A stretch of 64,000 nucleotides of DNA from a virus. Under the pieces are notes generated by a model. It made no database searches. It was not told where the DNA came from and worked only from the letters and a program-made list of their open reading frames with translations. Shown piece after piece: positions 8,701-46,601 of this stretch (position 1 is the first letter of the stretch; the number at the start of each line of letters is the position of its first letter). The stretch spans positions 1-64,000 of IMG/VR virus record IMGVR_UViG_3300022752_000035; one strand, given 5' to 3'. The translations under genes and the position numbers were made by a program.

Positions 8701-9117
8701 GGGCCCGTACTGGTATCGATTTTAAAAATTGGAATTAGAATGCAAGTAGAGTTAAAGTGGACTCTTTAAACAACTTTAAAATACTTAACTGCCAAATCAG
8801 CTAAGTTAAAAGGTAGTTTCTCTTTGAGAGTTTCTCACAAGAAGGACTCCCTAATCGCAGCCTAAAATCTGCGACCTGTTATCTACGACACATCTACTAG
8901 AATAATGGGTATTTAGATGTATATCTTTAAATCCTTTTTATTTAATTTTTAAAGATATTATTTAGGGTGAATGTTACTAAGGTAATATTTATAATTAAAT
9001 GAATAGTTATAGCTCGATTGCTTATTCGACACTATAGCGAAATAACGGAATAAGCTAAACTTGTAGTATTCTAGTTTAACTTTTTAAAAGACAGAGGTTC
9101 AACTCCTCTCGGGTCCA
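8701..9117 (+). ncRNA. ssrA: Transfer-messenger RNA (tmRNA)
   Basis: tmRNA rescues stalled ribosomes: it is charged with alanine, adds a short tag to the nascent protein and supplies a stop codon. The 5' end GGGCCCGTACTGGTATCGA matches the tmRNA consensus, and its first seven bases pair with CGGGTCC at 9110-9116. The T-arm is GAGGTTCAACTCCTC (9094-9108). CCA is not encoded. The tag frame starts at 8791 (after TTAACTGC, as in many tmRNAs) with AKSAKLKG, ends DSLIAA and stops at TAA 8863-8865. The TAA lies in the loop of a TCGCAG/CTGCGA hairpin, the standard helix 5 arrangement. The 24-residue tag is longer than the usual 8-16. The hydrophobic Leu-Ile-Ala-Ala end is a typical protease signal. 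tmRNA is known from some large phages. Confidence 0.93.
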
Positions 9118-21388: not shown

Positions 21389-22138
21389 ATGATAGATATA
21401 AATAAAAAATATGGAATCAGAGATTATGATTCTGGAATTGGAGATGCAGTAATAAAAAGCTCATTCCCAGAAAATTTTTTCATGAATTATAATCAAAAGC
21501 TAATAGATATTGAAAGAAAATGGATTTTTGATTATAACCCATATGTAGAAAGAGATAAAGATCCCGATATCGTTTTACCTTTCTTAGAAAGGCAAAGAGA
21601 AATAATCAATAAAAATGAAAGAAAATCTCATCTTTCTCACGCAGAAGAATATTGTTTTAATTTTGACTTACCAAAATGTTTTTTAAGAAGACCAAGACTA
21701 TATAAATACGAAGATTTAGAAACAGACAAAAATCAAGTAGTTGTCCATACATTCGGTAAAACTGTTGGGCCAATGAAAGAATATATAAGAAAACAGATAA
21801 CAAAAAATTATCAAAATTATAAATTAATACAAATTGGAATGCCATATGATCCAATTATTGAAGGAGCAGAAGATGCTAGAGGTCTAAGCGTATGGGATTC
21901 AATTAAAATCATAGCATCCAGTTCTATTTTTATAGGGGTTAATAGTGGTTTTCATCATATATCTAAAGCGTATCCAAAAGTTAGATCTAAACTTATTTTA
22001 GAAGTACCACAAGATAGACTTTTGAATTTTAGACCTATGGATCTCAAAAATAACTTTGAGTGGTTTGAATTTGGAGTTGAATATTATAATGATACTGAAT
22101 ATGATATAGGTATAACAGATGCTTATTTAAAAATATGA
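21389..22138 (+). CDS. GT9-like glycosyltransferase, short form
   Basis: A 249-residue protein. SSIFIGVNSGFHHISKAYPK carries the GxxSGxxHxA motif of the GT9 donor site, and the N-terminus has YGIRDYDSGIGDAVIKS, close to the usual GDAVLTT. It is shorter than the ~330-residue family norm, with a reduced N-terminal domain. It starts 1 nt after the preceding stop and overlaps the next ATG by 4 nt. The substrate is unknown. Confidence 0.65.
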   Translation: MIDINKKYGIRDYDSGIGDAVIKSSFPENFFMNYNQKLIDIERKWIFDYNPYVERDKDPDIVLPFLERQREIINKNERKSHLSHAEEYCFNFDLPKCFLRRPRLYKYEDLETDKNQVVVHTFGKTVGPMKEYIRKQITKNYQNYKLIQIGMPYDPIIEGAEDARGLSVWDSIKIIASSSIFIGVNSGFHHISKAYPKVRSKLILEVPQDRLLNFRPMDLKNNFEWFEFGVEYYNDTEYDIGITDAYLKI

Positions 22139-22728
22139 ATAAATTTATTAATTACGATAATCTATTTGATACCTTCCTAAAGTCAGGACAAGAAAGATTT
22201 TATACATTCAAAATTGCAATGAACTATTATTTAGAGAATAATGGTAAAATTATAGTAGAAACTGGTACTCAAAGACAAGTAGATGATTGGGGCGCGGGAT
22301 GTTCAACAAGTGCTTTAGGAAAATTCATGTCTGAATTTTCTCCAGAAAGTCATCTTTATTCTGTAGATATATCTAGTTTAAATCTAAAAATTTCTAAAGA
22401 GTTATGCTGTCAAAATTATCAGTCTTACATAAGCTGGCATGAACAAGACTCTATAACTTTTTTAAAAAACTTTAATAATAAAATAGATTTTCTATATTTA
22501 GATAGTTACGATTGGTTTGAACATGAGCCTCAATTAACAGAATGTCAAACTCATCAATTAAATGAAATGAAGGCCGCAATAGATAAAATGAATACAAAAT
22601 CTGTCATTTTACTTGATGATAATGATTTACCTGGAGGAGGCAAAACAAAATTAACCAAAGATTATTTAAGTAAAAATGATTGGATTTGTTTGCTTGATTT
22701 AAAACAGAGCGTTTGGATTAGAAAATAA
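22135..22728 (+). CDS. Class I SAM-dependent methyltransferase-like protein
   Basis: A 197-residue protein. The SAM-binding loop is IIVETGTQRQVDDWGAGCST, a variant of the VEVGxxxGxST type found in the Methyltransf_24 family, followed by HLYSVDIS (acidic motif II) and the DFLYLDSYDW region. In such clusters these enzymes methylate sugars or sugar acids. There is no other domain. It is translationally coupled to the gene before (ATGA) and starts immediately before the GT17 gene. Confidence 0.75.
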   Translation: MNKFINYDNLFDTFLKSGQERFYTFKIAMNYYLENNGKIIVETGTQRQVDDWGAGCSTSALGKFMSEFSPESHLYSVDISSLNLKISKELCCQNYQSYISWHEQDSITFLKNFNNKIDFLYLDSYDWFEHEPQLTECQTHQLNEMKAAIDKMNTKSVILLDDNDLPGGGKTKLTKDYLSKNDWICLLDLKQSVWIRK

Positions 22729-23529
22729 ATGCTATACAATTGTATACCATTTTATAATGAATTAGATTTATTAGATGTAAGATTGCACACAATGCACTCT
22801 TACGTTGATAAATTTATCATTGCAGAAATGGACACTACTCATTCTGGTAAAGAAAAACCATTTTATTTTGAACAGGCAAAGGAAAGATTTAAAGAGTTTG
22901 AATCTAAAATTATACATCTTAAAGTCCAAAGCCCAAGATCTGAGCATGCATGGACAAATGAAAACTATCAAAGAGACATAATCAAAAAATGGTTAGAAGA
23001 GAACGCGAATGATAATGATTTAGTTATAGTTCAAGATGCTGATGAGATTTTAAACGAAACTTTTATAGATAAAATAAAAGACATAGACTTATCTATACCA
23101 TATATTACTGAATTAGATTTTTATAGATATTATATCAATGCAGAAATTTTATCAGACAATAAAACATGGTCAAGTGGTCCTATAGTAAAATATAATTTTT
23201 TGAAAAATAATCCAAATATATCTCTAACAGGATTGAGAGATTTACATCCAGCTCTTAGACATCATAATAAAATCATCAAAAATTGTGGATGGCATTTTAC
23301 TTTTTTAGGAGGAGCAGAAGCAATAGCAGAAAAGATTAAAGCATATGCACATCAAGAAAGCAATAACGATTTTATAACAAATATAAATAGGTTAAAAGAT
23401 GCTTTAGATAATTGTCAAGATGCATGCAACCCAAATGGACCACCATTCAAGAAAATCGAATTAACAGAACAAAAATTCCCAAAATATATTGTAAACAATA
23501 AACAAAAATATATAAAATATATATTGTAA
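22729..23529 (+). CDS. GT17-family glycosyltransferase
   Basis: A 266-residue protein. The start YNCIPFYNELDLLDVRL, the THSGKEKPFYFEQ motif, the DADEI metal-binding motif and NCGWHFTFLGGAEAIAEKIK are the signatures of GT17 (beta-1,4-GlcNAc transferase-like) enzymes, seen also in phages and in bacterial polysaccharide clusters. The length fits the family. The donor and acceptor cannot be inferred. The ATG follows the preceding stop with no gap. Confidence 0.85.
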   Translation: MLYNCIPFYNELDLLDVRLHTMHSYVDKFIIAEMDTTHSGKEKPFYFEQAKERFKEFESKIIHLKVQSPRSEHAWTNENYQRDIIKKWLEENANDNDLVIVQDADEILNETFIDKIKDIDLSIPYITELDFYRYYINAEILSDNKTWSSGPIVKYNFLKNNPNISLTGLRDLHPALRHHNKIIKNCGWHFTFLGGAEAIAEKIKAYAHQESNNDFITNINRLKDALDNCQDACNPNGPPFKKIELTEQKFPKYIVNNKQKYIKYIL

Positions 23530-23530
23530 A

Positions 23531-24175
23531 ATGAATTTAACAAAAAAATATAATTTAAAAATTGAAATTGATCAAGGGAATGTTGTACATAATATTAATG
23601 ATTTTTTTCAAGATTATGGAGAAAATTTATTAATAGAAAATTTTGAAAAAATTTGTTTAAAAATTAAAAATGAAAAATCAAAGGCATCTATGATAGAGTT
23701 AGGCGCAAATTGGGCTTACTATTCTCTTTTATTTAAAGCTATAATTGGAAAAGATAGTACATTTAATATTATGTTGGAAGTGGATCCAAAAGCTTTTGTA
23801 AGAGGAGTTCATAATTTTAAAATAAATGAATTTGAAGGCGTTTTTTTGAATAAATTAATAGGAAATGAAGCTTATAGGATGCCGCATTTAAAAGATATTC
23901 CATGTGTTTCATTAGACCAGATCTTTAAAGAATACGATTTAAATGATTTAGATATATTGCATTCAGATATAGATGGATCAGAGCTCGATATGTTAATTCA
24001 AAATGAGAATATTTTTAAAAATAAAAAAATTAAATATATATTTATGCTTACTCATTCACAAGAACTTCATGAAAAATGCTTTAATTTTTTAAATAATTTA
24101 CAATATAATTGTATTTTAAATCATAATCATTTTAATGTTGGAGGACAGGATGCACTTCTTATCTTTGAATCCTAA
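23531..24175 (+). CDS. FkbM-family methyltransferase
   Basis: A 214-residue protein. SMIELGANWAYYSLLF is the SAM-binding motif; VSLDQIFKEYDLNDLDILHS followed by DIDGSELDML is the FkbM signature, in which the usual KIDVEG is replaced by HSDIDGSE. Members O-methylate sugars or small metabolites. It lies between glycosyltransferase genes and overlaps the next start by one base (TAATG). It probably methylates the glycan made by this cluster. Confidence 0.85.
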   Translation: MNLTKKYNLKIEIDQGNVVHNINDFFQDYGENLLIENFEKICLKIKNEKSKASMIELGANWAYYSLLFKAIIGKDSTFNIMLEVDPKAFVRGVHNFKINEFEGVFLNKLIGNEAYRMPHLKDIPCVSLDQIFKEYDLNDLDILHSDIDGSELDMLIQNENIFKNKKIKYIFMLTHSQELHEKCFNFLNNLQYNCILNHNHFNVGGQDALLIFES

Positions 24176-24915
24176 TGAAAATAGCAATTTGCATATCTGG
24201 TTTGCCAAGATCATTTAAAAGAAGTTATCCTTTATTAGATAAAGTTTTTCTATCAAAATATAATTGCAATATATTTATTTCTACTTGGGATTGGCAAGTC
24301 AAAGAAATTCAAAAAAAACAAGAAACTAAAGATCAATTTGGTAAATCTATACCTATTACTGGAACTCATTGGTGGCCACAAGATGGAGACGCTAATGAAT
24401 TTATAAATATTTTTAAACCAAACAGATCAGAAATAGAAATTTTTAATGATTCTACATTAGAGTCTAAATTTAACTATTCTAATTATCAACAGCATGGAAT
24501 TAATAATAGTTTCCTGCCTATGTTCTATAAAGTTTGGAGAGCCAACGAATTAAGACTGTCTTATGAGAAAGAGCATAATATAAAATATGATCTAGTGTTA
24601 AGAACTAGAGGAGATATATCATATAATGGAATTTTATCTGATTATGAGATCAAAAACGCTTTATCGGGTTATGGATTTTGCAGGACGTCGTATCAAAACC
24701 CAGATACTCGACCTGGAGAACCAGAGCATATAAGCGACATTTATTTTTTATCAAATCCAGAAAAGGCTAATTTATATGCAAATTTTTGGTTATATCATAA
24801 ACAAGTATTAGAAAATACAAAATCATTTATTGCTGAAATAAATTTAGAAGCTTATCTTCACGCTGTAGGAGTTAAATGGGTAGCAACAGGACTTGATATA
24901 GATGTATTAAGATGA
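24175..24915 (+). CDS. Putative glycosyltransferase of the ICISGLPRS family
   Basis: A 246-residue protein. IAICISGLPRSFKRSYPLLD, NIFISTWDWQ, YDLVLRTRGDISY (Asp-containing, possible nucleotide-sugar site) and HISDIYFLSNPEKANLYANF are typical of a family often found in marine phages and algal-virus-like glycan clusters. The fold is probably GT-A-like, but no characterised member is known to me. The start overlaps the previous stop (TAATG), and the end overlaps the nucleotidyltransferase (ATGA). Confidence 0.65.
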   Translation: MKIAICISGLPRSFKRSYPLLDKVFLSKYNCNIFISTWDWQVKEIQKKQETKDQFGKSIPITGTHWWPQDGDANEFINIFKPNRSEIEIFNDSTLESKFNYSNYQQHGINNSFLPMFYKVWRANELRLSYEKEHNIKYDLVLRTRGDISYNGILSDYEIKNALSGYGFCRTSYQNPDTRPGEPEHISDIYFLSNPEKANLYANFWLYHKQVLENTKSFIAEINLEAYLHAVGVKWVATGLDIDVLR

Positions 24916-25634
24916 AAATAAATATAGTAATACCTATGGCTGGACTAGGAAAGAGATTTGAAAAAACTCATCCCAATACTCCTAAACCATTTATTGATAT
25001 AAAAAATGAATTAATGTTATCAAGAGTTATTGATAATTTAAAAAATGATATAGTACAATTTATTTTTATATCTCAAAATACTCTTTTTGAAGATGTAAGA
25101 TTTAAACAAATAGTCACCAATCATAAAATTAATTATAAAACAGTAATCGCACCAGAAAAAACAGATGGACCAGCATGTTCTTGTCTTTTAGCTAAAGATA
25201 TTATTAACAATGATGATTCGCTGATCATAATTAATTGTGATCAAATAATATTAGACTTTAATTTAAGTAACTTATTAAATTTTGTTAAATATAATAATGC
25301 CGATGGAGTTCTAGGAGCATTTCATTCTACATCATCTAAGAATAGTTACATAAAATTAGGAGATGATTTAAGAATACAAGATATCAAAGAAAAGATAGTT
25401 ATTAGCAACATCGCTACAAATGGTTTACATTTTTGGAAGTATGGTAAATTTTTTATACAATCTGCAGAAAAAATGATTAATTTAAATGATAAATATAGTA
25501 ATGAATTCTATGTTGCTCCAAGTTATAATTATCTAATAAAAGAGGGCAAAACTATATTACCTTACTATTATAATCTTCATTATCCAATAGGAATACCAGA
25601 AGATTTAGAATATTTTACTAAAAATATAATATGA
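24912..25634 (+). CDS. Sugar-phosphate nucleotidyltransferase-like protein
   Basis: A 240-residue GT-A-fold protein. PMAGLGKRFEKTHPNTPKPF is the nucleotide-binding signature (GxGxRf...PKP) of sugar-1-phosphate and MobA-like nucleotidyltransferases, with a metal-binding Asp in IIINCDQII. It should activate a sugar or polyol phosphate as an NDP or CMP derivative. It lies two genes upstream of the cupin and three upstream of the RuBisCO-like protein, so its substrate may be the product of that enzyme. Not assignable to RmlA, GalU or Mpg on sequence. Confidence 0.8.
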   Translation: MKINIVIPMAGLGKRFEKTHPNTPKPFIDIKNELMLSRVIDNLKNDIVQFIFISQNTLFEDVRFKQIVTNHKINYKTVIAPEKTDGPACSCLLAKDIINNDDSLIIINCDQIILDFNLSNLLNFVKYNNADGVLGAFHSTSSKNSYIKLGDDLRIQDIKEKIVISNIATNGLHFWKYGKFFIQSAEKMINLNDKYSNEFYVAPSYNYLIKEGKTILPYYYNLHYPIGIPEDLEYFTKNII

Positions 25635-26590
25635 ACATATTATTTATAGGTAACAATGCTGTTTTGCCAGATTATTTACATGATTCTGTTTTTCATGGAT
25701 TAAGAGAAGTTTATGGAGCGTCGGTAGTAGATGCAAATAAATTATGGTATTTATATGAAGATTGCAACTTGTTTGATGAAAAAAATTTTGAAACCATTAG
25801 AAAACCTTTACATGGATGGGGATATACATATGGCGGAAATTTAAAAGATTTAAATATTGATAGAGTAGATATATATTCTAAAATTAAAAATAAATACTTT
25901 GATTTAGTTATTTTTGGCATTTGTAGAAATGACCCTAAAGATTCTAGCAAAGCTATTTATGAAAGAGATGATTTATTAAATAAATGCCTGCAAATTTACC
26001 CATCAAACAAATTAATATTTTTAGATGGAAGTGACGGTCAAGATATCAAAAGAGAAGATCTATTAAATAAAGGTTTTTATTTTAAAAGAGAAAATATAGG
26101 AATAGGTTATCCTATTTGGTTTGCAATCCCTAAACAAAAATTTAATTTTAATTATGAAAAAATAAAACTATTTTCTAATAATATTCCAGCTCATAACAGA
26201 AAAAATTATACTCATTTTACAGAAAAATCTTACTATTCAGACTATGGTCAAAGTTTTTTTGCTATAACCTGTAAAAAAGGTGGATGGGATTGCATGAGGC
26301 ACTATGAAATAATGTCTCAAGGAACATTACCATATTTTGTAGATATTGATAAATCTCCTATACAAACAATGCCACTTATAAATCGTAAATTTTGCCAAGA
26401 AACAAAAACTTTAATTGATATAAAATATGATCTTTGGCAACAAATTGATTTACAAATACTAAGTGAGATTAAAGATATGAATAAGTATGAATATTTAAGA
26501 AATTTAATGATAAGTCAAGTTAAAGAACTATATAATACAGAAACATTGGCGAAATACATTATAGATACAGTAAATCATGAAAATAGATAA
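25631..26590 (+). CDS. Putative glycosyltransferase, GT-B-like, 319 aa
   Basis: The protein has an N-terminal NILFIGNNAVLPDYLHDSVF Rossmann-like start and a C-terminal KKGGWDCMRHYEIMSQGTLP followed by YFVDID. That resembles the donor-site Glu-motif region (E-x7-E type) of GT-B enzymes that select a target peripheral gene. No exact family is recognised. It overlaps its neighbours by 4 nt (ATGA) and 14 nt, which marks it as an integral member of the sugar operon. Confidence 0.55.
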   Translation: MNILFIGNNAVLPDYLHDSVFHGLREVYGASVVDANKLWYLYEDCNLFDEKNFETIRKPLHGWGYTYGGNLKDLNIDRVDIYSKIKNKYFDLVIFGICRNDPKDSSKAIYERDDLLNKCLQIYPSNKLIFLDGSDGQDIKREDLLNKGFYFKRENIGIGYPIWFAIPKQKFNFNYEKIKLFSNNIPAHNRKNYTHFTEKSYYSDYGQSFFAITCKKGGWDCMRHYEIMSQGTLPYFVDIDKSPIQTMPLINRKFCQETKTLIDIKYDLWQQIDLQILSEIKDMNKYEYLRNLMISQVKELYNTETLAKYIIDTVNHENR

Positions 26591-26903
26591 TATTAAAAAT
26601 TATAAAGGAGGTTGGTTTATAGGTGATTTTAAACCTACCACATTTAAAACTAAAGAATTTGAAATATGTTATAAAAAACATAAAAAAAATGAAATATGGC
26701 CAAAACATTATCATAAAGTGGCTACAGAATATAATTATTTAATATCTGGTAAAATGAAAATTCAAAATAAAATTTTAAAAAAAGGTAATATATTCATATT
26801 ATATCCTAATGAGGTTGCTGATCCAATTTTCCTGGAAGATTGTGAGCTTATAGTAATTAAAACTCCATCTATCAAAAAAGATAAATACAATGTTAAACTA
26901 TAA
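26577..26903 (+). CDS. Single-domain cupin protein
   Basis: A 108-residue beta-barrel. WPKHYHKVATEYNYLISGKM gives the first cupin motif (two His and Glu), and KGNIFILYPNEVADPIF the second, with the usual His replaced, so metal binding may be weak. Small cupins of this type often act in sugar-phosphate isomerisation or epimerisation or as sensors. It overlaps the RuBisCO-like gene by 14 nt, suggesting a shared pathway. Confidence 0.8.
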   Translation: MKIDNIKNYKGGWFIGDFKPTTFKTKEFEICYKKHKKNEIWPKHYHKVATEYNYLISGKMKIQNKILKKGNIFILYPNEVADPIFLEDCELIVIKTPSIKKDKYNVKL

Positions 26904-28107
26904 TATATTTAAAACAGACGACCAATTAGATAAAGATTTTTTTAATAGATATTATATTGTATCTTATGATTTAGAATCAAAAACTAATCTTCGAGATGCA
27001 GCTTGGAATCTTGCTATAGGTCAATCTATTGGAAATCCAAGTGCAAGATCAGAGTTTGAAACACAAGATATGATAGACAATCATTGTGCTATAGTATTAG
27101 CAGACGAAAAAGAGCTTCTTAATAAGAATAAAGGTAATGTAAAATTTGCTTTTCCACAAGCTAATATAAATTTTGAAACAGATGGAATTAGTCAGCTACT
27201 AGTTCAAATCATGGGCGGACAATGTGATATAGATATTATTTATCGTTGTTTTATAACAGATTTACAATTGACTAAAAGCATGGAATGTTTATTAAAAGGA
27301 CCAAAAATAGGATTAAAACAAATAAAGGAATATTGCAATATAAGTGATGATAAACCAATATTTGGAGGAATTGTAAAACCAAAAATAGGATTATCTCCTC
27401 AAAAAAATCTTGATTTAGTGAAACAAATGATTGATGGAGGATGCAATTTTATTAAAGAAGATGAAATTCTTTCTGACCCAGAGCATTGTCCAATTCATAA
27501 AAGAGTTCCATTGGTTATGGATTATTTAAGAAGCACTGGATCAAAAGTCTTTTATGCTGTATCTATACACGCAGACCATTCTCAAATTTTAAAAAGAGTC
27601 AAACAAGTTTATGAATTAGGTGGAAATGGTGTTCATATTAATTTTCATTGTGGATTAGGAGCATATAAAAGTGTCAGAGAATTAAATTTACCTATTTTAA
27701 TACATTTTCAAAAAAGTGGTGATAAAATTTTAAATTGTTTAGATCATAGATATGGAATTGATCAAAATGTTATATTTAAGCTTGTAGCTCAAAGTGGTTG
27801 TTCTACATTACATGCTGGTATGATTGGTGGTTACATGGATAATGAAACCGTAGAAGTTAAAAAAACAATAAAGATTTTAAATGATGTTAATGCTGTACCA
27901 GCTCTTAGTTGCGGTATGCATCCTGGACTAATTGATTATATTATGAATCAAGTTGGACATGGAAATTGGATGGCAAATGTTGGTGGAGCATTATCTTCGC
28001 ACCCTATGGGCACATTAGCTGGAACAAAAGCTATGCGCCAATCTATAGACAGGAATTATGAGATAGAATATAAAAAAGCTATAGAAAAATGGGGATATAA
28101 AAAATGA
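26890..28107 (+). CDS. RuBisCO-like protein (form IV type) in a phage sugar cluster
   Basis: A 405-residue homologue of the RuBisCO large subunit. GGIVKPKIGLSP (Lys163, Lys165) matches Lys175/Lys177 of plant RuBisCO. FIKEDE (Lys189, Asp191, Glu192) matches the carbamylated Lys201 with its metal ligands Asp203 and Glu204. His272 matches His294, His308 matches His327, and Ser340-Cys-Gly matches the Ser379 loop. The loop-6 Lys334 is replaced by Tyr315, Arg295 by Phe273 and His298 by Ser276. So enolisation chemistry is plausible but CO2 fixation is not. Form IV proteins include a tautomerase of methionine salvage and isomerases or decarboxylases of sugar phosphates. The tight overlap with the cupin (14 nt) and GDPD-like gene (4 nt) implies a sugar or polyol phosphate substrate. 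Confidence 0.93.
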   Translation: MLNYNIFKTDDQLDKDFFNRYYIVSYDLESKTNLRDAAWNLAIGQSIGNPSARSEFETQDMIDNHCAIVLADEKELLNKNKGNVKFAFPQANINFETDGISQLLVQIMGGQCDIDIIYRCFITDLQLTKSMECLLKGPKIGLKQIKEYCNISDDKPIFGGIVKPKIGLSPQKNLDLVKQMIDGGCNFIKEDEILSDPEHCPIHKRVPLVMDYLRSTGSKVFYAVSIHADHSQILKRVKQVYELGGNGVHINFHCGLGAYKSVRELNLPILIHFQKSGDKILNCLDHRYGIDQNVIFKLVAQSGCSTLHAGMIGGYMDNETVEVKKTIKILNDVNAVPALSCGMHPGLIDYIMNQVGHGNWMANVGGALSSHPMGTLAGTKAMRQSIDRNYEIEYKKAIEKWGYKK

Positions 28108-28544
28108 TGCTTATAGCCCATAGAGGCAATTTTAATGGACCAAATTTAAAAGAAGAAAATACAATAAAATATATTGAGAATGCATTGAAAAATGGATTTG
28201 AAGTAGAAATTGATGTAAAAATGCATAAAAACAATATTTATAGTGGACATGATAAACCTATAGAGGTTTTAACTGAAAAATGGTTAAATAAATACTATAA
28301 AAAACTATGGATACATTGTAAAGACGCTCAAAGCCTAAAATATTTTGCAAATCATAATAAATACAATTATTTTTGGCATGAAGATGATGCTTTTACTATA
28401 ACGTCCAAAGGATTCATATTATCTCATATTGATAATAATATAAATAAATTATCAGGGAAATTTATTAAAATTAATTTTAATAACAAGAAAATAAATGGTA
28501 ATTTCGTTGGAATATTATCTGATTATGTTATATTATATAAATAA
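28104..28544 (+). CDS. Glycerophosphodiester phosphodiesterase-like protein, short form
   Basis: A 146-residue protein. LIAHRGNFNGPNLKEENTIK and NGFEVEIDVKMHKN give the HRG...EN...E-D signature of the GDPD (TIM-barrel) family, with DKPIEVL and WIHCKDAQSLKYF further on and a GH pair (YSGHDK). It is much shorter than classical GDPD (~250 residues), a form that often appears in polysaccharide clusters. There it may cleave or transfer a phosphodiester, for example on a glycerol- or polyol-phosphate. The start overlaps the stop of the RuBisCO-like gene. Confidence 0.75.
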   Translation: MMLIAHRGNFNGPNLKEENTIKYIENALKNGFEVEIDVKMHKNNIYSGHDKPIEVLTEKWLNKYYKKLWIHCKDAQSLKYFANHNKYNYFWHEDDAFTITSKGFILSHIDNNINKLSGKFIKINFNNKKINGNFVGILSDYVILYK

Positions 28545-28882
28545 TGATAGATCTTTTAGTAGATGAAGCTTATGCATTTGATTATTTAAGCATTTTGCAT
28601 GTAAAAAAAGAATTAAACGAAAAAGTAGCCCCTAATTGGCATAATTGTTATATTCATATAGAAAAACAAATATCTAGCGATTTAATGAATAAAATTGTTA
28701 ATTCTCAAGAATATCATAATATGATAAACGCTAATAAAATAACTTTTGACGCAGTTGAAAAAGCTAGATATGGCAACATAACTGCAAAAGAAGTAGATGA
28801 AGCAAATATGTTAAGATATAAAAGAAAATTAGAATTACAAAACAAATTCTTTAATAATATATTAACGGAGATAAAAACTTAA
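28544..28882 (+). CDS. Hypothetical protein, 112 aa, of the carbohydrate cluster
   Basis: Not recognised. The protein starts LLVDEAYAFDYLSILHVKKE and is otherwise charged and helical; LRYKRKLELQNKFFN is basic. Its ATG overlaps the GDPD-like stop by one base, and its stop overlaps the next ATG by one base, so it is translated in step with the sugar genes. Small proteins of this appearance are found next to sugar-nucleotide genes in phages, but no function is known. Confidence 0.55.
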   Translation: MIDLLVDEAYAFDYLSILHVKKELNEKVAPNWHNCYIHIEKQISSDLMNKIVNSQEYHNMINANKITFDAVEKARYGNITAKEVDEANMLRYKRKLELQNKFFNNILTEIKT

Positions 28883-30042
28883 TGAGTTTAAACTTTATGG
28901 AAACATATTACGGAAAAAAAATAGATACTGCGAATATTCTGAATATAGATGATGCAAGCAAATTATTAGATGGCAGAAAAGTAGTAGTTATTACAGGCGT
29001 TACTGGACAAGATGGAAGTCATATGGTGGATTATTTATTGAAGCACACAAATTATATTATATTTGGTGGAGTCAGGAGATTAAGCGTGTATAATCACGAA
29101 AATATCAGACATATAGATTCTGATCGTTTTCATCTTATTAATTTTGACCTTACAGATGCCCACGCCATAGCAAGAACTGTAGAAAAATTAAAGCCAGATT
29201 ATTTTATCAATTTTGCAGCTCAAAGTTTTGTTGCAAGTAGTTGGGATTTTGCAAGACAAACTTGGGCTACAAATTCTACATCTGTATTAGACATATTAGA
29301 AGCTATTAGACTTTATAAACCATCTTGTAGATTATATCAAGCTGGATCTAGCGAAGAATTTGGAAATGTTATTTACTCTCCTCAAGATGAAAATCATCCA
29401 TTAAGGCCCAGAAGTCCATATGGAGCTAGTAAAGCTGCTTCACGACAATTAATTAAAGTATACAGAGAATCATATAATCTTTACGCTATACAAGGATGGC
29501 TATTTAATCACGAAGGTCCAAGAAGAGGAGAAGAGTTTGTAACAAGAAAAATTACTAAAAAAGTTGCTCAAATATTTAATGCAATTAAAAATGAACAACC
29601 ATTTACACCATTACAATTAGGAAATGTTGATGCCAAGAGAGATTGGAGTGATTCAGAAGACTTTATTGATGGCGTTTGGAGGATGTTGAATCAAGATAAG
29701 TATAATCCTAAATATGACGGTATTCCTAAAGAATATGTATTTTCATCAAATGAAACTCACACTATTAGAGAGTTTGTTGAATTAGCTTTTGCTTATTGTT
29801 ACATGATAGGAAAATGGGAAAATAAAACTGGTAAACCAGAAGATGAAAAATATTATGTTTATTTACAAAATAAACCAGTTTTAGTAGTAGAAATTAACCC
29901 AAAATTTTATCGTCCAGCAGAAGTTGAATTATTATTAGGTAATTCAAATAAAGCAAGAAACGAATTAGAATGGAAACCAAATATAACTTTTCCTATGCTA
30001 GTAGATAAAATGATACGAAATGATTTAGAGCAGTATGAATAA
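28882..30042 (+). CDS. gmd: GDP-mannose 4,6-dehydratase
   Basis: A 386-residue short-chain dehydrogenase that makes GDP-4-keto-6-deoxymannose, the precursor of GDP-fucose, rhamnose or perosamine. The NAD(P)-binding motif is TGVTGQDGSHMVDYL (residues ~40-54), the catalytic Thr/Ser-Glu is in QAGSSEEFGN, and YGASK provides the catalytic Tyr and Lys. The NHEGPRRGEEFVTRKI segment is characteristic of Gmd. About 35 extra residues precede the Rossmann fold. It is the last gene of the overlapping run. No fucose synthase or reductase is seen next to it in this window. Confidence 0.93.
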   Translation: MSLNFMETYYGKKIDTANILNIDDASKLLDGRKVVVITGVTGQDGSHMVDYLLKHTNYIIFGGVRRLSVYNHENIRHIDSDRFHLINFDLTDAHAIARTVEKLKPDYFINFAAQSFVASSWDFARQTWATNSTSVLDILEAIRLYKPSCRLYQAGSSEEFGNVIYSPQDENHPLRPRSPYGASKAASRQLIKVYRESYNLYAIQGWLFNHEGPRRGEEFVTRKITKKVAQIFNAIKNEQPFTPLQLGNVDAKRDWSDSEDFIDGVWRMLNQDKYNPKYDGIPKEYVFSSNETHTIREFVELAFAYCYMIGKWENKTGKPEDEKYYVYLQNKPVLVVEINPKFYRPAEVELLLGNSNKARNELEWKPNITFPMLVDKMIRNDLEQYE

Positions 30043-40116: not shown

Positions 40117-40368
40117 ATGGCATCAATGGATTTTATATACGATATTTTGCAAAAATTTGAAAAAGAAAAGATTGATTATCTTTTGATTACTTTGCAGCAT
40201 GGAAAAACCACTAGTAAAGCTGATGTTTTTTATTCATTAGAAAATGAAGAGAAATCTTTTGCAGCCTTAAAAGAAGGTCTTTCTGAATTTCAACAGAACT
40301 TAGATAAGTCAGTAAATAAATATAAAAAGAGACGCAAGAAGAAAAATAGTGATGACGAAGACTTTTGA
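40117..40368 (+). CDS. Hypothetical protein, 83 aa, preceding the polymerase core
   Basis: The ATG at 40117 is chosen because a TATAAT box ends 6 nt before it; an in-frame TTG at 40078 would lie upstream of the promoter. The protein (starts MASMDFIYDI) has a short alpha/beta N-terminal part (EKIDYLLITLQHGKTTSKAD) and a very basic C-terminus (NKYKKRRKKKN) before an acidic end (DDEDF). It overlaps the polymerase core gene. It might assist polymerase or bind DNA, but nothing proves it. Confidence 0.55.
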   Translation: MASMDFIYDILQKFEKEKIDYLLITLQHGKTTSKADVFYSLENEEKSFAALKEGLSEFQQNLDKSVNKYKKRRKKKNSDDEDF

Positions 40369-42889
40369 TTTTGTTAATTCATTTAGTAAAATTGATTTAC
40401 CTTTATATGGAGTAAGACTGCCAGAATTTAAAGTCAAGACAGAACATAAAAGTAATCTAGGCTTATCAGAAGACGCATCAAATACAGAGTTTTTAAAAAA
40501 ATTAGCTTATTCTAACTTACCAACTGGTAAAGAATATAAGAAGAGATTAGACCATGAATTTGAAATCATAGAAGATTTGGGGTTTATTGATTATATAATT
40601 CTTGTTTGGCTAGTTATTAATTATTGTAAAGAAAATAAAATACCAACAGGATTAGGAAGAGGAAGTGCCGCTGGCAGTTTAATTTTATATCTTATTGGGG
40701 TTACAAAGATTGATCCTATTAAACATAATCTTTATTTTGAAAGATTTATATCTAAGATTAGAGCTAAAAAGCAAGTTGTTGATGGGGTAACATACTTAGA
40801 TGGTAGTTTAATGTGTGACGTAGATTTGGATATCTGCTATTATAATAGACATAAAGTTATAGATTTCTTGAATCAAATATTTCCTAATAGAATTAGTAAA
40901 ATTTTAACATTTAACACTTTGAGTGGAAAACTATTAATTAAAGAGTGCGGAAAAATAGTTGATGAAAAAAGTGAAACAGAAATGACAGGAGTCAGTTCTC
41001 TTATCCCAAAAATATTCGGACAAGTTAAAGATATTTCAGAAGCATATGAAGAAGTGGAAAAATTTAAAGAATGGTGCGATGAAAATTCAGAAATATATAG
41101 CATAGCCTTAAAACTTCGTAATCTTATTAAAAATAAAGGAGTACATCCTTCTGGTGTTCAAATTTCCCATAGTCCATTATCAGAAACTTGCCCATTAGAA
41201 TTATCTTCTGATAAAGAATCAGTTAGTGCATTTGATATGAATGATATAAGTCAATTTAATGTCAAATTAGATTTGCTAGGATTAAGAAGCGTTTCAGTAG
41301 TTTATGATGTATGTAGTATGATTAATAAAAATATTGAAGATATAGATATTGAAGATAATTTTATATATCAGCAATTACAAGACCTTAGAAGTCCTCATGG
41401 TTTATTCCAGATCGAAGCAGATACTAATTTTAAAGTATGCAGAAAAGTTAGACCTAGAAATTCAGAAGAATTAAGTGCTGTATTAGCACTTGCTAGACCT
41501 GGAGCTTTGCAGTTTGTAGATCAATATGCTAAATATGTTGAAACAGGAGAGTTTCAATCTATTCATCCATTTTTTGATGATATTTTGAAAAGAACTGGTG
41601 GAGTAGCACTTTATCAAGAGCAATTGATGCAAATGGCTCATAAGATTGGATTCACACTAGATGAAGCAGAAATTCTTAGAAGAATTGTAGGAAAGAAAAA
41701 GGTTGAAGAAATTAAAGCGTGGAAAGAAAAGATTGAAAAGAAATGCGCAAAGAATAATTTACCAAAAGAAGTAGGAGAGGTTTTGTGGAAAATTTTAGAA
41801 GATTCTGCCAACTATTCATTTAACGCAAGCCATAGTCAAAGTTATGCAGCTTTGGCAGCAATTACAATCTATCTTAAATTTAAATATCCTAAAGAGTTCT
41901 TCTTGTCTTTATTAAAGATGACAAGATTTGAACCAGATCCAATTAATGAAATTTCTAAAATACATAAAGAAATGGATTTATTTAATATCAAGTTATTGCC
42001 ACCTCATATCGTAAAATCTGAAATGGATTTCAGCGTAGAAGAGAAAGATATTAGATTTGGATTATTATCAATTAAAGGTATTTCTGATAAATCAATAGAA
42101 AGACTAAATAATTTTAGGAATAAATATGCTACAAAATTTGATGTATTTAAATCTGCTCAACAAGCTAAATTATCTATTAGAGTTTTATCACCTTTGATTC
42201 AAGCTGGAGCATTGGAAAATTTTAAACAATCAAGAAGCAAAGTCGTGTTGGAAGCCCAATTATGGAATATACTTAATCAAAATGAACAAAAATATGCTAT
42301 GACATATGGCGAAAAGTTTGATTATGATTTATTCAAAATAATTAAATTTTTAAATACTACAAAAGATGAAAAAGGTAAATTTATTATTAAAGAAAGTAGA
42401 TTAGACACAATAAGAAAAGCTTATGCTCCATATAAAAAGATTTATGAACAAAATAGTAAAAATGAAAGATTTGCGAATTGGTATTATGAGAATAAATTGC
42501 TGGGTTATACATATAATACAACATTAAAAGATATTTTCTCAGATCAAAAACCAGATCTCCTTAATATAAGAGAAGTAAATGAGGCTCCAGAAGGTTTACC
42601 TGTATTATTTATTGGTGTTATAAAAGATCAATATCTTGGAATAGCTAATAATAGTAAAAAGACTAGATATTTAAGACTTAATGTGCAAGATGAAACATCC
42701 ACAATTAATGCTCTTATATTTAATGATAAGATAGAAGAATGCAAAGAGATGAATAATCATTTACCTGATGAAAATAATATAGTTATAATAAGAGGTAGAA
42801 AAAAGAGCGAAGATTCTGTCTTTGCAGATTTAATAGCTGTTCAAGACCATAAGATATTTATGAAACTTGGAGAAATTAAAGAAAAATAA
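40352..42889 (+). CDS. dnaE: DNA polymerase III alpha, catalytic core (split gene)
   Basis: A family C replicative polymerase of 845 residues without PHP domain. GLGRGSAAGSLILYLIGVTK is the conserved GRGSAAGS motif. CDVDLDICYYNRHKVI carries the two catalytic Asp (PDxDxDF in relatives), and FNVKLDLLGLRSVSVVYDV the third (KxDxLGL). HHH/fingers (NYSFNASHSQSYAALAA) and a C-terminal OB-fold (VLFIGVIKDQYLGIANNSKK) are present. The ATG at 40352 is used; a GTG lies one codon upstream. The start region matches the palm border of normal DnaE, confirming that the PHP part is encoded separately at 38161. No beta-clamp or tau gene is seen in this window. Confidence 0.93.
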   Translation: MTKTFDFVNSFSKIDLPLYGVRLPEFKVKTEHKSNLGLSEDASNTEFLKKLAYSNLPTGKEYKKRLDHEFEIIEDLGFIDYIILVWLVINYCKENKIPTGLGRGSAAGSLILYLIGVTKIDPIKHNLYFERFISKIRAKKQVVDGVTYLDGSLMCDVDLDICYYNRHKVIDFLNQIFPNRISKILTFNTLSGKLLIKECGKIVDEKSETEMTGVSSLIPKIFGQVKDISEAYEEVEKFKEWCDENSEIYSIALKLRNLIKNKGVHPSGVQISHSPLSETCPLELSSDKESVSAFDMNDISQFNVKLDLLGLRSVSVVYDVCSMINKNIEDIDIEDNFIYQQLQDLRSPHGLFQIEADTNFKVCRKVRPRNSEELSAVLALARPGALQFVDQYAKYVETGEFQSIHPFFDDILKRTGGVALYQEQLMQMAHKIGFTLDEAEILRRIVGKKKVEEIKAWKEKIEKKCAKNNLPKEVGEVLWKILEDSANYSFNASHSQSYAALAAITIYLKFKYPKEFFLSLLKMTRFEPDPINEISKIHKEMDLFNIKLLPPHIVKSEMDFSVEEKDIRFGLLSIKGISDKSIERLNNFRNKYATKFDVFKSAQQAKLSIRVLSPLIQAGALENFKQSRSKVVLEAQLWNILNQNEQKYAMTYGEKFDYDLFKIIKFLNTTKDEKGKFIIKESRLDTIRKAYAPYKKIYEQNSKNERFANWYYENKLLGYTYNTTLKDIFSDQKPDLLNIREVNEAPEGLPVLFIGVIKDQYLGIANNSKKTRYLRLNVQDETSTINALIFNDKIEECKEMNNHLPDENNIVIIRGRKKSEDSVFADLIAVQDHKIFMKLGEIKEK

Positions 42890-42926: not shown

Positions 42927-43511
42927 ATGATACAAATTTATAAACCCACACCTCGCAATACTGGCACAGCTTGTAGCTTTTCTTTTAATAATCTTGATGG
43001 TAATTTTTATTTAAATTTAATTAAACAAGCCTCTTGGAATGATCAAAAAAAGATAGGTAGTTTTTCGGAAAACGCTCAAAATCCAGAGAAAAAAGTGGTC
43101 GTTAAATTATCTAAAATAGAGGTTTGTGGTATTTTGGATGCACTAGATCATAATAGAAACGCAGATTTTTTTCATAATTCAGAAAACCAAAAGCTAGGAA
43201 TTAAGTTCTCTCCATATATTAGAGAAGAAAAGCAAATTGGTTTTAGTTTGAATGTAATCAAAAACTCAAAAATGCAAACTGCACAACCAGCGGTTAGTTT
43301 TCTTATTGGTTTTACTTTTGCAGAAGCTAGGCTAATTGCAGAATATATCAAGTTCGGATTAGGTCATATTTTCTCAACAGAGAGAAGCGAAGAGATTAAA
43401 AAATTAAAAAACGCTAAAAGCAAAGCTATAGAAAATAAAAAACAAAAAGACGAAGTTGAAGATACAATAGAAGAAGGTAATTTATCTGAACAAGAAGACG
43501 ATCTTTGGTAA
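42927..43511 (+). CDS. Putative single-stranded DNA-binding protein
   Basis: A 194-residue protein. The beta-rich N-terminal ~150 residues (KPTPRNTGTACSFSFNNLDG, VVKLSKIEVCGILDALDHNR, KQIGFSLNVIKNSKM) resemble SSB-like proteins encoded by large phages beside the polymerase. The acidic tail EEGNLSEQEDDLW ends in a hydrophobic residue, the usual SSB tip for recruiting replication partners. It follows the polymerase gene and has its own leaderless promoter. Assignment is by architecture and context, not by an OB-fold motif. Confidence 0.65.
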   Translation: MIQIYKPTPRNTGTACSFSFNNLDGNFYLNLIKQASWNDQKKIGSFSENAQNPEKKVVVKLSKIEVCGILDALDHNRNADFFHNSENQKLGIKFSPYIREEKQIGFSLNVIKNSKMQTAQPAVSFLIGFTFAEARLIAEYIKFGLGHIFSTERSEEIKKLKNAKSKAIENKKQKDEVEDTIEEGNLSEQEDDLW

Positions 43512-43516
43512 AAATA

Positions 43517-45436
43517 ATGCGTAAGAAGATCGTTTTTCAATCTGACTTCGCTTTGGCTAAGACAGGCTTTGGTAGAAATTCTAAAGCTATACTTAAATAT
43601 TTATATAAAACTGGTAAATATGATATTGTACATTATTGTTGTGGTATGCAGAAAGGCAATAATCAATTAGATAGAACTCCTTGGAAAAGTTGCGGTTCAT
43701 TACCAAATACTCAAAAAGAAGTAGAAAAATTAAATAAAGATCCTCATTTGGCTAGAATGGCAAGTTATGGGGCTTATCTTTTAGACGAAGTTATTAAAGA
43801 AGAAAAGCCAGACGTTTATATTGCTGTCCAAGATATTTGGGGAGTAGATTTTGCGATAGATAAGCCTTGGTTTAATAAAATTAATTCTGTTATTTGGACA
43901 ACTCTTGATTCTTTGCCAATTTTAGATTCAGCAGTTAAATGCGCTCCAAAAGTTAAAAATTATTGGATATGGAGCGATTTTGCAACACAAGCTCTTCACA
44001 AATTAGGTCACAAACATGTACAAACTGTTCACGGAGCATTAGATACGCAAAATTTCTATAGATTATCAGATGAAGAAAAGGATAATTTACGAACAAAGTT
44101 TAATATAGAAAAAGATAAATTCTTAGTTGGTTTCGTATTTAGAAATCAATTACGCAAAAGCGTTCCAAATTTGCTCGAAGGATATTCAATCTGGAAAAAA
44201 GAAAATAACATAAAAAATGCTGGCTTACTTTTACATACTCATTTTAGCGAAGGTTGGAATATCATGAAGCTCGCTGAAGAATATGGAATAGACAAAAAAG
44301 AAATATATACAACATATATATGCAAATCTTGTGGAAATTATGAAGTCAAAAATTTTACAGGTCAAGATATAGATTGTAATTTTTGTAATAATAAAAAATC
44401 ACAAACTACCACTAACGTATCAATAGGAGTAACAGAAGAACAGCTGAATGAGGTATATAACTTAATGGATGTATATTGTCATCCATTTACGAGCGGAGGT
44501 CAAGAGATCCCAATTCAAGAAGCTAAACTTACAGAATTAATTACTTTAGTTACTAATTATAGTTGCGGAGAAGAAATGTGCAAAGATGAAGCTGCAAGTT
44601 TTGCGTTAGAATGGGCAGAGTATAGAGAACATGGAACAGAGTTTATAAAAGCTTCTACATATCCAAAATCTATAGCAGAAAATTTAAATAAAGTATATAA
44701 AATGTCAAAAGAAGATAGAGTAAAGTATGGCAAAAAAGCTAGACGATGGACAATAGATAATTATTCTGTAGAGATAATAGGTAAAAAAATAGAAGAATTT
44801 ATAGATTCTTGCTCTTTCATTGATAAAGCTTTCTCTTTCAAGATAGAAGAAAAAGATCCATACCATTCTGTCCCTGAGATTAAAGATGATGGAGCGTGGG
44901 TAAAATATTTATACGAAAATATTTTAAAAACTAAAAATATTCCATCAGAAGATGAAGGTTATAAATATTGGATGGCAGAATTACAAAAGGGAACAAAAAG
45001 AATTGATATAGAAAATTATTTTCGTCAAGTAGCATTACAAGATAATAATAAAAATAAACAAATTTCTTTTGAAGATCTTCTAGATAAAGATGATGCTGGC
45101 AAAAGAATATTATATGTTATGCCAGAAAGTATTGGAGATGTATTTTTATCTACAAGTTTATTTAGATCTATTAAAGATCAATATCCAAACCATAATCTTT
45201 ATGTCGCTACAAAATCAGATTATTTCGATGTTTTAGAAGCCAATCCATATATACATAAAGTTATAGAATATATATCTCAAATGGATAGTCTTCCTTGGCT
45301 GGAGGGAATCAGTACTCATAAAGGTTACTTTGATATTGCATTTTTACCTTATGCTCAAACTCAAAGATTCTTAACATATTTACATAATGGTAAAACAAAT
45401 ATAGCTTATAAGGATTATAAATATGCATCTAGTTGA
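43517..45436 (+). CDS. Large glycosyltransferase: GT4-like domain with zinc ribbon, plus N-terminal half of a GT9 domain
   Basis: A 639-residue protein starting at MRKKIVFQSDF; an upstream TTG at 43505 is less likely. Residues ~1-420 form a GT-B/GT4 enzyme (VHGALDTQNFYRLSDEEKDN, HPFTSGGQEIPIQEAKLTEL) with an inserted CxxC...CxxC zinc ribbon (CKSCGNYEV...CNFCNNKK). The last ~110 residues (ILYVMPESIGDVFLSTSLFR, then HNLYVATK) are the N-terminal half of a GT9 transferase, but the frame ends in TGA. The matching C-terminal half starts in a different frame at 45423. This suggests a split gene, a programmed +1 frameshift or a sequence error. Confidence 0.75.
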   Translation: MRKKIVFQSDFALAKTGFGRNSKAILKYLYKTGKYDIVHYCCGMQKGNNQLDRTPWKSCGSLPNTQKEVEKLNKDPHLARMASYGAYLLDEVIKEEKPDVYIAVQDIWGVDFAIDKPWFNKINSVIWTTLDSLPILDSAVKCAPKVKNYWIWSDFATQALHKLGHKHVQTVHGALDTQNFYRLSDEEKDNLRTKFNIEKDKFLVGFVFRNQLRKSVPNLLEGYSIWKKENNIKNAGLLLHTHFSEGWNIMKLAEEYGIDKKEIYTTYICKSCGNYEVKNFTGQDIDCNFCNNKKSQTTTNVSIGVTEEQLNEVYNLMDVYCHPFTSGGQEIPIQEAKLTELITLVTNYSCGEEMCKDEAASFALEWAEYREHGTEFIKASTYPKSIAENLNKVYKMSKEDRVKYGKKARRWTIDNYSVEIIGKKIEEFIDSCSFIDKAFSFKIEEKDPYHSVPEIKDDGAWVKYLYENILKTKNIPSEDEGYKYWMAELQKGTKRIDIENYFRQVALQDNNKNKQISFEDLLDKDDAGKRILYVMPESIGDVFLSTSLFRSIKDQYPNHNLYVATKSDYFDVLEANPYIHKVIEYISQMDSLPWLEGISTHKGYFDIAFLPYAQTQRFLTYLHNGKTNIAYKDYKYASS

Positions 45437-46601
45437 AACATATGCTCTTAATTGCGGCTTAAAAATTGATAAGCCATTTATATATGAAAAATATTGTCCA
45501 ATTCCATTTGATAAATATATATCATTCCAACCATGCAGTAAATATACATCAAAAAGTTATGATTATTGGCAAGAAGTTATTAATCAAATTTTACCACAAC
45601 TTAATGAAAAAAATATTCACATTATTCAAATAGGTGGTAAAGATGAAAAACCAATAGAAAATTGTTATCATCTTCAAGGAAAAACAAATATTAATCAAGC
45701 GGCTTATATTATAAAAAGAGGATTGTTGCATTTTGGTGCCGATAGTTTTGGAGTCCATGTAGCAAGTTATTATGATAAACCAATTGTTGCATTATATTCT
45801 AATAGTAGACCAGAAAATGCTGGTCCATATTTTAGCTCTAAAGATAACATTAAAATTTTGGAGATAGACAAAAAAAATAGAAAGCCAAGTTATTCAGCCG
45901 AAGAATCTCCAAAAACTATTAATGAAATCGATCCAATAGATATAGCAAATGCAGTTTTAAGATTTTTAGATTTAAATAAAATTAATATAAAAACAGTTCA
46001 TTTGGGTGATGATTACAATAGAAAACTAATTGAATCTGTACCTAATGCAATTATAGCAGATATATCGAAATTAGGAGTTAATTCTTTGATCATGAGAATG
46101 GATTATGAATTTAATGAAGAAGTTCTAGAAGAGCAATTAAAAAGAAATAATTGCTCAATTGTAACATCTAAACTAATTAAATATGATATATTAAATAAAT
46201 ATAAAGATAATATTTCTCAAATTATTTATAATATAGATGAAAATCATGATGTTGATTTTGTAAAAAACCTCAAGAAATTAGGCAAACCATTTGTAACTTC
46301 TAGCTTCTTATCTGAAGATTTTATAGAATCAATCAAATTAGAATATATGGATTTCTGTCAAATTTTAAAGTTAAATAAAACTACAAAAAAAGACGTTAAG
46401 AATTTAAAAGAAAATATTAATAATTTATATTATAAATGTAATAAAATTACAATTAGTCAAGGTAAAATATATAATTCTAAAGCAGCTTATTTAAATAATA
46501 TTGAATTTCAACATAAACCTATAAAAATTATAGATATACCAGAATTTTGGGAAGAAGCTAAATACTTCTATCTTTTCGAGTTGACAAAAGATCAAATTTA
46601 A
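45423..46601 (+). CDS. C-terminal half of the GT9 glycosyltransferase, with an extra C-terminal domain
   Basis: A 392-residue protein. Residues 1-170 (KYISFQPCSKYTSKSYDYW, LLHFGADSFGVHVASYYDKP) are the donor-binding half of a GT9 transferase and fit directly after the half that ends in the previous gene. Residues ~190-392 are unrelated helices and strands (VHLGDDYNRKLIESVPNAII) with no recognised family. The ATG lies 14 nt inside the upstream gene in another frame. It may be translated by re-initiation or by +1 frameshifting as one long enzyme. Confidence 0.65.
   Translation: MHLVETYALNCGLKIDKPFIYEKYCPIPFDKYISFQPCSKYTSKSYDYWQEVINQILPQLNEKNIHIIQIGGKDEKPIENCYHLQGKTNINQAAYIIKRGLLHFGADSFGVHVASYYDKPIVALYSNSRPENAGPYFSSKDNIKILEIDKKNRKPSYSAEESPKTINEIDPIDIANAVLRFLDLNKINIKTVHLGDDYNRKLIESVPNAIIADISKLGVNSLIMRMDYEFNEEVLEEQLKRNNCSIVTSKLIKYDILNKYKDNISQIIYNIDENHDVDFVKNLKKLGKPFVTSSFLSEDFIESIKLEYMDFCQILKLNKTTKKDVKNLKENINNLYYKCNKITISQGKIYNSKAAYLNNIEFQHKPIKIIDIPEFWEEAKYFYLFELTKDQI

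Follow-up and report, generated by a model that had tools for sequence, protein, structure and literature searches.

A RuBisCO-like protein of an apparently undescribed, virus-associated branch, encoded in a sugar-nucleotide gene cassette of phages

The window analysed here, a stretch of 64,000 nucleotides (positions 1 to 64,000) of the IMG/VR virus record IMGVR_UViG_3300022752_000035, encodes a RuBisCO-like protein (RLP) whose relatives form a deep and common branch of the RuBisCO superfamily, found almost only in phages and seemingly undescribed despite the attention that this enzyme has received. It is a real and conserved phage gene, and it probably represents a functional branch that is new for this fold. 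The reading favoured here, held with a little better than even confidence, is that this virus-associated clade consists of non-carboxylating, enolising sugar-phosphate isomerases or tautomerases that would feed nucleotide-sugar synthesis. The gene lies in a sugar island of the window, and its surroundings are as follows.

22135-22728 (+): methyltransferase, sugar island
22729-23529 (+): GT17-like glycosyltransferase, sugar island
23531-24175 (+): FkbM methyltransferase, sugar island
24175-24915 (+): ORF of 246 aa, sugar island, family recurrent among the neighbours (51/82 loci), no Pfam match
24912-25634 (+): sugar-phosphate nucleotidyltransferase (NTPT; NTP_transferase), 240 aa, PF00483 E=3.5e-10
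25631-26590 (+): 319-aa ORF between nucleotidyltransferase and cupin, no Pfam match, outside the conserved cassette
26577-26903 (+): cupin, small and single-domain, 108 aa, with family members in 76/82 RLP loci
26890-28107 (+): RuBisCO-like protein of the virus clade, 405 aa, identified by PF00016, model fold, tree and residue alignment
28104-28544 (+): mini GDPD-like phosphodiesterase ('HRGN' protein), 146 aa, family present in 69/82 RLP loci
28882-30042 (+): GDP-mannose 4,6-dehydratase-like protein, PF16363 E=4e-98, same sugar island but outside the core cassette

The RLP gene begins with ATG, contains no internal stop, and shares 14 nt with the cupin ORF and 4 nt with the GDPD-like ORF, the same overlaps that had been read in a first-pass annotation of this DNA. 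The Pfam model PF00016 (RuBisCO_large) matches the protein with E=1.3e-34 and 120.3 bits, four times the gathering score of 30.1. An AlphaFold2 model built on a 48-sequence alignment (pLDDT 95.5, pTM 0.90) has the form III RuBisCO 2d69 as its top PDB match (E=4.6e-30, TM 0.86), with RLPs ranking after the form III RuBisCOs. The open ORF, the profile match and the modelled fold thus bear out the proposal of a full-length RuBisCO-superfamily protein of 405 aa. Compared with the two closest relatives, the dN/dS ratio of the gene is 0.05 (91% identical relative) and 0.08 (75% identical relative), which indicates strong purifying selection.

The first-pass annotation had also called for a structural model and an inspection of the active site, and the model and the residue alignment gave a RuBisCO fold in which the metal-binding triad is kept and the CO2-handling residues are replaced. 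Residues were checked on an 82-sequence alignment, and invariance was counted over 49 non-redundant clade members (47-75% identity with the window protein). The family positions assigned earlier are correct: K163 corresponds to RuBisCO K175, K165 to K177, K189/D191/E192 to K201/D203/E204, H272 to H292, H308 to H327, and S340 to S379. The Mg/carbamate triad K201/D203/E204, which by alignment includes the carbamylatable lysine, is invariant in 49/49 members, as are K175, K177, H327, S379 and the phosphate-site glycines G381, G403 and G404; H272 (H292) is kept in 47 of the 49. By contrast, the loop-6 lysine K334 is replaced by tyrosine in every member, and Y315 of the window protein does align with it, as previously noted. 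The accompanying claim that Arg295 is replaced by Phe was mistaken, R295 being aligned with K275 while F273 stands two residues earlier. Further replacements absent from the earlier reading are E60 by G44, N123 by G110 and H294 by Q274, the same residues being found, together with the lysine at position 295, in all 49 members; T65/W66, which are N49/P50 in the window protein, are likewise replaced by Asn and Pro in all 49. By the established enzymology of RuBisCO, K334 (with its partner E60), N123 and H294 capture and stabilise CO2, and the triad, K175, K177, H327 and the phosphate-site glycines are parts of the enolisation and phosphate-binding machinery. The residue states across the 49 members (with H272 in 47) therefore indicate that the core for enolisation and phosphate binding has been retained and that the CO2-handling set is lost. 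Since the changes of R295 to Lys and H294 to Gln alter the P5-phosphate end of the site, the protein may act on something other than a bisphosphate.

These data bear directly on the label that automatic AMG pipelines give to such genes, namely a working RuBisCO (rbcL) that fixes CO2 in the infected cell. The PF00016 match, the form III RuBisCOs as nearest solved folds and the best NCBIfam score, which is also for form III, agree with that label, and two studies list viral rbcL genes under 'carbon dioxide fixation' (PMC12607003, PMC8506154). However, the residue set of a true carboxylase (EC 4.1.1.39), K334 with E60, H294, R295, N123, T65 and W66, is replaced throughout in 49/49 members; the score on the form III model (TIGR03326) is 151 bits against a cut-off of 497; and the surrounding genes are those of sugar-nucleotide synthesis. 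Carbon fixation by this protein is therefore extremely improbable, and the carbon-fixation label is very probably wrong for the clade as a whole. The likeness to form III RuBisCO (Thermococcus kodakarensis 3a12, Pyrococcus horikoshii 2d69, and 8dht) is that of the whole fold (TM 0.85-0.86) and of the triad, K175, K177, H327, S379 and the phosphate-site glycines, and form III gives the best profile score among solved proteins (168.9 bits). Nevertheless, identity in the structural alignment is only 23-25%, the carboxylase residues listed above are missing from the phage protein, and the latter lies outside an AMP salvage context and in a separate clade.

In a phylogeny of 82 sequences (IQ-TREE, LG+C20 PMSF), 48 viral sequences and one from Patescibacteria form a single clade (support 100/100), whose stem measures 1.9 changes per site; the tree was built without DeepYkr sequences such as R. 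rubrum Rlp1, and its long branches leave uncertain which outside group stands nearest. MtnW (2zvi, 2oek, 3fk4), the OiaX/RLP group, form I, form III and the Patescibacteria RuBisCOs all fall outside this clade. A position within MtnW, which the first-pass annotation had named as grounds for abandoning its reading, is contradicted by this topology, and the virus-associated clade beside cupin and nucleotidyltransferase genes that it had predicted was recovered, with the two families in 76/82 and 79/82 loci, respectively. The clade fits form IV in the broad sense of a RuBisCO fold with essential carboxylase residues replaced, and to this extent the earlier assignment to form IV stands; as a placement it does not, as the name is a catch-all and the clade lies outside all RLP groups sampled. 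Form IV is not one clade, so that the term is a label rather than an assignment. Because membership of the form III carboxylases, MtnW and OiaX is in each case contradicted by both model score and tree, the protein is regarded here simply as an RLP, and its clade is apparently an undescribed virus-associated branch of the superfamily.

A role in methionine salvage, either as a MtnW enolase (acting on DK-MTP-1-P) or as a DeepYkr-type 5-methylthioribulose-1-phosphate 1,3-isomerase working with a cupin in the MTA-isoprenoid shunt, deserves mention since these RLPs enolise or isomerise pentulose-type phosphates by the same kind of enolate chemistry, and since DeepYkr RLPs isomerise 5-methylthioribulose-1-phosphate beside a cupin (PMC5893883). 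It is nonetheless very unlikely for the phage protein, which scores 97.7 bits on TIGR03332 (cut-off 513.6) and 125.4 bits on PRK09549 (cut-off 409), stands in a clade apart from the three MtnW structures with a different residue set, and is accompanied by a nucleotidyltransferase and a GDPD; moreover, cyanophages and bacterial LPS loci have cupins of the same family with no RLP beside them. Slightly less remote, but still quite unlikely, is a decarboxylase or transcarboxylase acting on oxo-sugar phosphates, like OiaX and its apionate-catabolism relatives. These proteins, including 3nwr, share with the phage protein the RuBisCO fold, a similar length and non-carboxylating sugar-phosphate chemistry (the last only proposed for the phage protein); the OiaX model NF042437 matches it with 111.8 bits, OiaX-type proteins are its nearest plasmid matches (about 27% identity), and half of the OiaX/RLP group likewise has Gly in place of N123. 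Yet the cut-off of that model is 700, the clades are separate, no apionate genes were seen nearby, and the residue patterns are the reverse of each other: the OiaX/RLP group keeps K334 (7/8) and H294 and R295 (7/8), all lost in the phage clade, and has lost K177, which the phage clade keeps.

The source record is 95,984 bp long, and the window carries genes for a ribonucleotide reductase (RNR), a UvsX-like recombinase, a DnaB helicase, a DNA polymerase and minor-tail proteins, which disposes of the concern that the contig might be a bacterial chromosome. No relative of the RLP was found by tblastn in 50,697 deposited phage genomes, nor was a viral RuBisCO fold found in BFVD or a match to the protein in PHROGs. 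A single-sequence scan of IMG/VR returned 8 loci, and an alignment-based scan returned at least 112 stretches encoding relatives, of which the 80 that were kept are 47-91% identical and lie on contigs of up to 294 kb. A terminase was recognised by PHROG 2 in 9 of 20 RLP-virus records examined, several of which are fragments. Two of the terminase matches, in the L060 record (G398:C1:110062-110601) and the L014 record (G010:C1:106144-106614), contain one in-frame stop each (TAA and TAG, respectively). A motif present in 79/82 known clade members detected a single member, from Patescibacteria (L090), in 84,980 bacterial and archaeal genomes. Of 287 Patescibacteria genomes, that of L090 alone gave a clade-like score, the next best being an ordinary form III RuBisCO (212 bits). 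The L090 gene lies in a polysaccharide locus, where its neighbours, as read from their sequences, encode glycosyltransferases, a radical SAM protein, membrane proteins and transposase-like products, for which reason a mis-binned phage was rejected as its origin. With at least 112 viral stretches and one cellular member nested inside the viral sequences (97/92), the clade is virus-associated; gain of the gene by bacteria from phages is the simpler reading, though with this one case a tentative one.

Neighbour clustering over 82 RLP loci gave recurrent families of nucleotidyltransferase, cupin, GDPD-like, glycosyltransferase-like and methyltransferase genes. The constant partners of the RLP are the nucleotidyltransferase (240 aa; 79/82), the cupin (107 aa; 76/82) and the 'HRGN' protein (148 aa; 69/82), and the conserved cassette comprises nucleotidyltransferase, cupin, RLP and mini-GDPD. 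The complete four-gene cassette is present in 64 RLP loci, in 63 of them on a single strand, counts that do not represent independent events since some contigs are near copies; it was also found on one Patescibacteria chromosome. The cupin profile matches small cupins, including the cupin-type mannose-6-phosphate isomerase 7zvm (E=4e-4), and a cupin homologue has a weak Pfam Cupin_2 match. The 'HRGN' protein is a predicted mini-GDPD: the GDPD-type catalytic residues H6, R7, E18, E35, D37 and H49 are invariant, its profile matches GDPD 7e0v with E=5e-5, and the top seven PDB folds for its model (pLDDT 94) are all GDPDs, the matches being weak (best E=3e-3). In a tree of nucleotidyltransferases, those of the RLP cassettes fall into what is essentially a single clade (99/98; 33 of 34), which argues that nucleotidyltransferase and RLP have been inherited together. 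Elsewhere in the window, outside the main sugar island, a second pair of glycosyltransferases, GT1-like and GT9 heptosyltransferase-like, is encoded at 43505-46601 (+).

Related cassettes lacking the RLP were reached through the cupin. The cultured Synechococcus phages SynMITS9220M01 and Bellamy encode an island with the same cupin family (50% identity), a related nucleotidyltransferase (32%) and a nearby GDPD-like gene (30-35% to the homologue of locus L010). It contains no RLP: directly before the cupin stands an NTPT-RpiB fusion gene (PF02502, E=4e-33), and ahead of this are genes for a kinase of PfkB type and a KdsC-like HAD phosphatase. In a cupin-centred scan of IMG/VR together with cultured phages, the best 80 of 490 relatives included RpiB in 72 loci, PfkB in 80, the KdsC-like HAD in 77 and an RLP in none; conversely, the 82 RLP loci included no PfkB, no KdsC-like HAD and one RpiB. 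At the scale of whole records, RpiB was present in one of 20 RLP viruses and absent from 19. The lone carrier, the L083 record, has a free-standing RpiB (G008:C1:17362-17775), and in the clustering the L083 locus has no adjacent cupin or nucleotidyltransferase. The RLP cassette and the cyanophage RpiB/PfkB/HAD cassette are thus nearly mutually exclusive and hardly ever co-occur. A second scan centred on the cupin of the window found an RLP in 74 of the best 80 viral loci, all 74 with the nucleotidyltransferase, and in the remaining six the set HAD-NTPT, cupin, NTPT-HAD-like and GDPD, in which a second nucleotidyltransferase fused to a HAD-like domain stands in place of the RLP; as each scan retains the best 80 by similarity, the two cover the extremes of the cupin family but not the range between them. 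In addition, LPS regions on plasmids of Pseudomonas, Ruegeria and Roseinatronobacter carry GDPD-like, HAD, nucleotidyltransferase and cupin genes, and Patescibacteria carry HAD-cupin and cupin-NTPT fusions. On three of the plasmids (L212, L213 and L214), the nucleotidyltransferase beside the cupin is annotated as 'glycosyltransferase family 2', but is an NTP_transferase by profile and Pfam. These variants indicate that cupin, nucleotidyltransferase and GDPD constitute a core that can take up several different sugar-phosphate modules, the RLP being one of them. In cultured phages, the genes of the cyanophage cassette (loci L114, L115 and L120-L199) are annotated only as 'phosphatase' or hypothetical.

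The relationship between the two phage cassettes should be read with care. The RpiB-fused nucleotidyltransferases form a clade of their own (100/99), separate from those of the RLP cassettes, and a simple orthologous swap of RLP and RpiB on a common nucleotidyltransferase was accordingly rejected; for the same reason, the sugar made by the RLP cassette may differ from the cyanophage one. Moreover, one RLP stands opposite three cyanophage genes (isomerase, kinase and phosphatase), so that a one-to-one swap is only conjectural, and the six cupin loci with the NTPT-HAD-like fusion, like the bacterial cassettes with a HAD only, indicate that an isomerase is not always part of such cassettes. The apparent replacement may hence be only an analogy, and the pathways may make different sugars. 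With these reservations, the presence of RpiB at the analogous position suggests aldose-ketose isomerisation of pentose-size phosphates, and the DeepYkr RLPs, which also stand beside a cupin, show that the fold is capable of such chemistry.

In the favoured scheme, the RLP would bind a phosphorylated keto- or aldo-sugar, most likely of pentose size in view of the RuBisCO pocket and the RpiB analogue. With its carbamate/Mg centre and K175/K177, it would abstract a proton to give an enediolate, which would be reprotonated without CO2 to yield a different isomer or tautomer. The nucleotidyltransferase would then activate this product as an NDP-sugar, the cupin would isomerise or epimerise the sugar, and phage glycosyltransferases would transfer it from the NDP-sugar to a host-surface or virion glycan. 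A variant that is unlikely, though distinctly less so than the carboxylase, methionine-salvage or OiaX-like alternatives, keeps the RLP in the cassette and has it supply the nucleotidyltransferase substrate by another enolate reaction, for example retro-aldol cleavage, dehydration or phosphate migration. It would accommodate the position of the RLP opposite three enzyme functions in the cyanophage cassette and opposite a HAD of phosphatase or mutase type in the bacterial cassettes; on the other hand, the RpiB of the analogous cassette points to aldose-ketose isomerisation, and RuBisCO-fold enzymes with such a residue set are best known for enolisation. A bolder extension of the isomerase/tautomerase reading, possible but tentative and put at somewhat below even, is that the clade diversified in viruses as a fifth functional branch of the superfamily, its role being to supply phage-directed glycans with a nucleotide-activated sugar, probably a pentose or ketose, the RLP replacing isomerase, kinase and phosphatase together, and that bacteria may have acquired it from phages. 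No pathway matching the cassette was found in the papers on pentulose O-antigens. The four-gene cassette offers a reconstitutable route to a new sugar pathway and to what large phages decorate with it, and the cyanophage set of NTPT-RpiB, PfkB, KdsC-like HAD, cupin and mini-GDPD is a tractable system in cultured phages. The contexts of the RuBisCO fold, which include CO2 fixation, methionine salvage and sugar-acid breakdown, would probably be widened by this clade to nucleotide-sugar synthesis.

The first-pass annotation knew of no characterised phage member of this family. Viral RbcL-like genes have in fact been reported: PMC12607003 describes five viral rbcL calls from landfills, which cluster with 'RbcL-like' proteins and are read as carbon fixation, and also records rbcL in a random IMG/VR sample, and PMC8506154 describes viral rbcL/cbbL from the Great Salt Lake, likewise read as carbon fixation. 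No residue analysis, cassette or virus clade was found in main-text passages of these two reports. No description of the clade, its residues or its cassette was found in the literature searched, most subscription papers and preprints lying outside it, and the clade itself is apparently undescribed. A survey of Global Ocean Sampling data had placed 65 environmental RuBisCO homologues outside forms I-IV (PMC1821046, 2007), and these are possibly members of the same clade. Viral 'rbcL' calls may be misread as viral carbon fixation, for which the present clade serves as a warning.

Finally, some other features of the window can be noted. The DNA polymerase (40349-42889, +) is at most about 26% identical to those of deposited phages; the phage therefore belongs to a lineage far from the cultured ones, and no host is proposed. 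A protein with a pretoxin-HINT/intein-splicing-like domain (PF07591, E=5e-11) is encoded at 61442-62752 (+), just past a minor-tail-like gene, and ARAGORN detected a tmRNA gene at 8701-9117 (+), with the tag AKSAKLKGSFSLRVSHKKDSLIAA.
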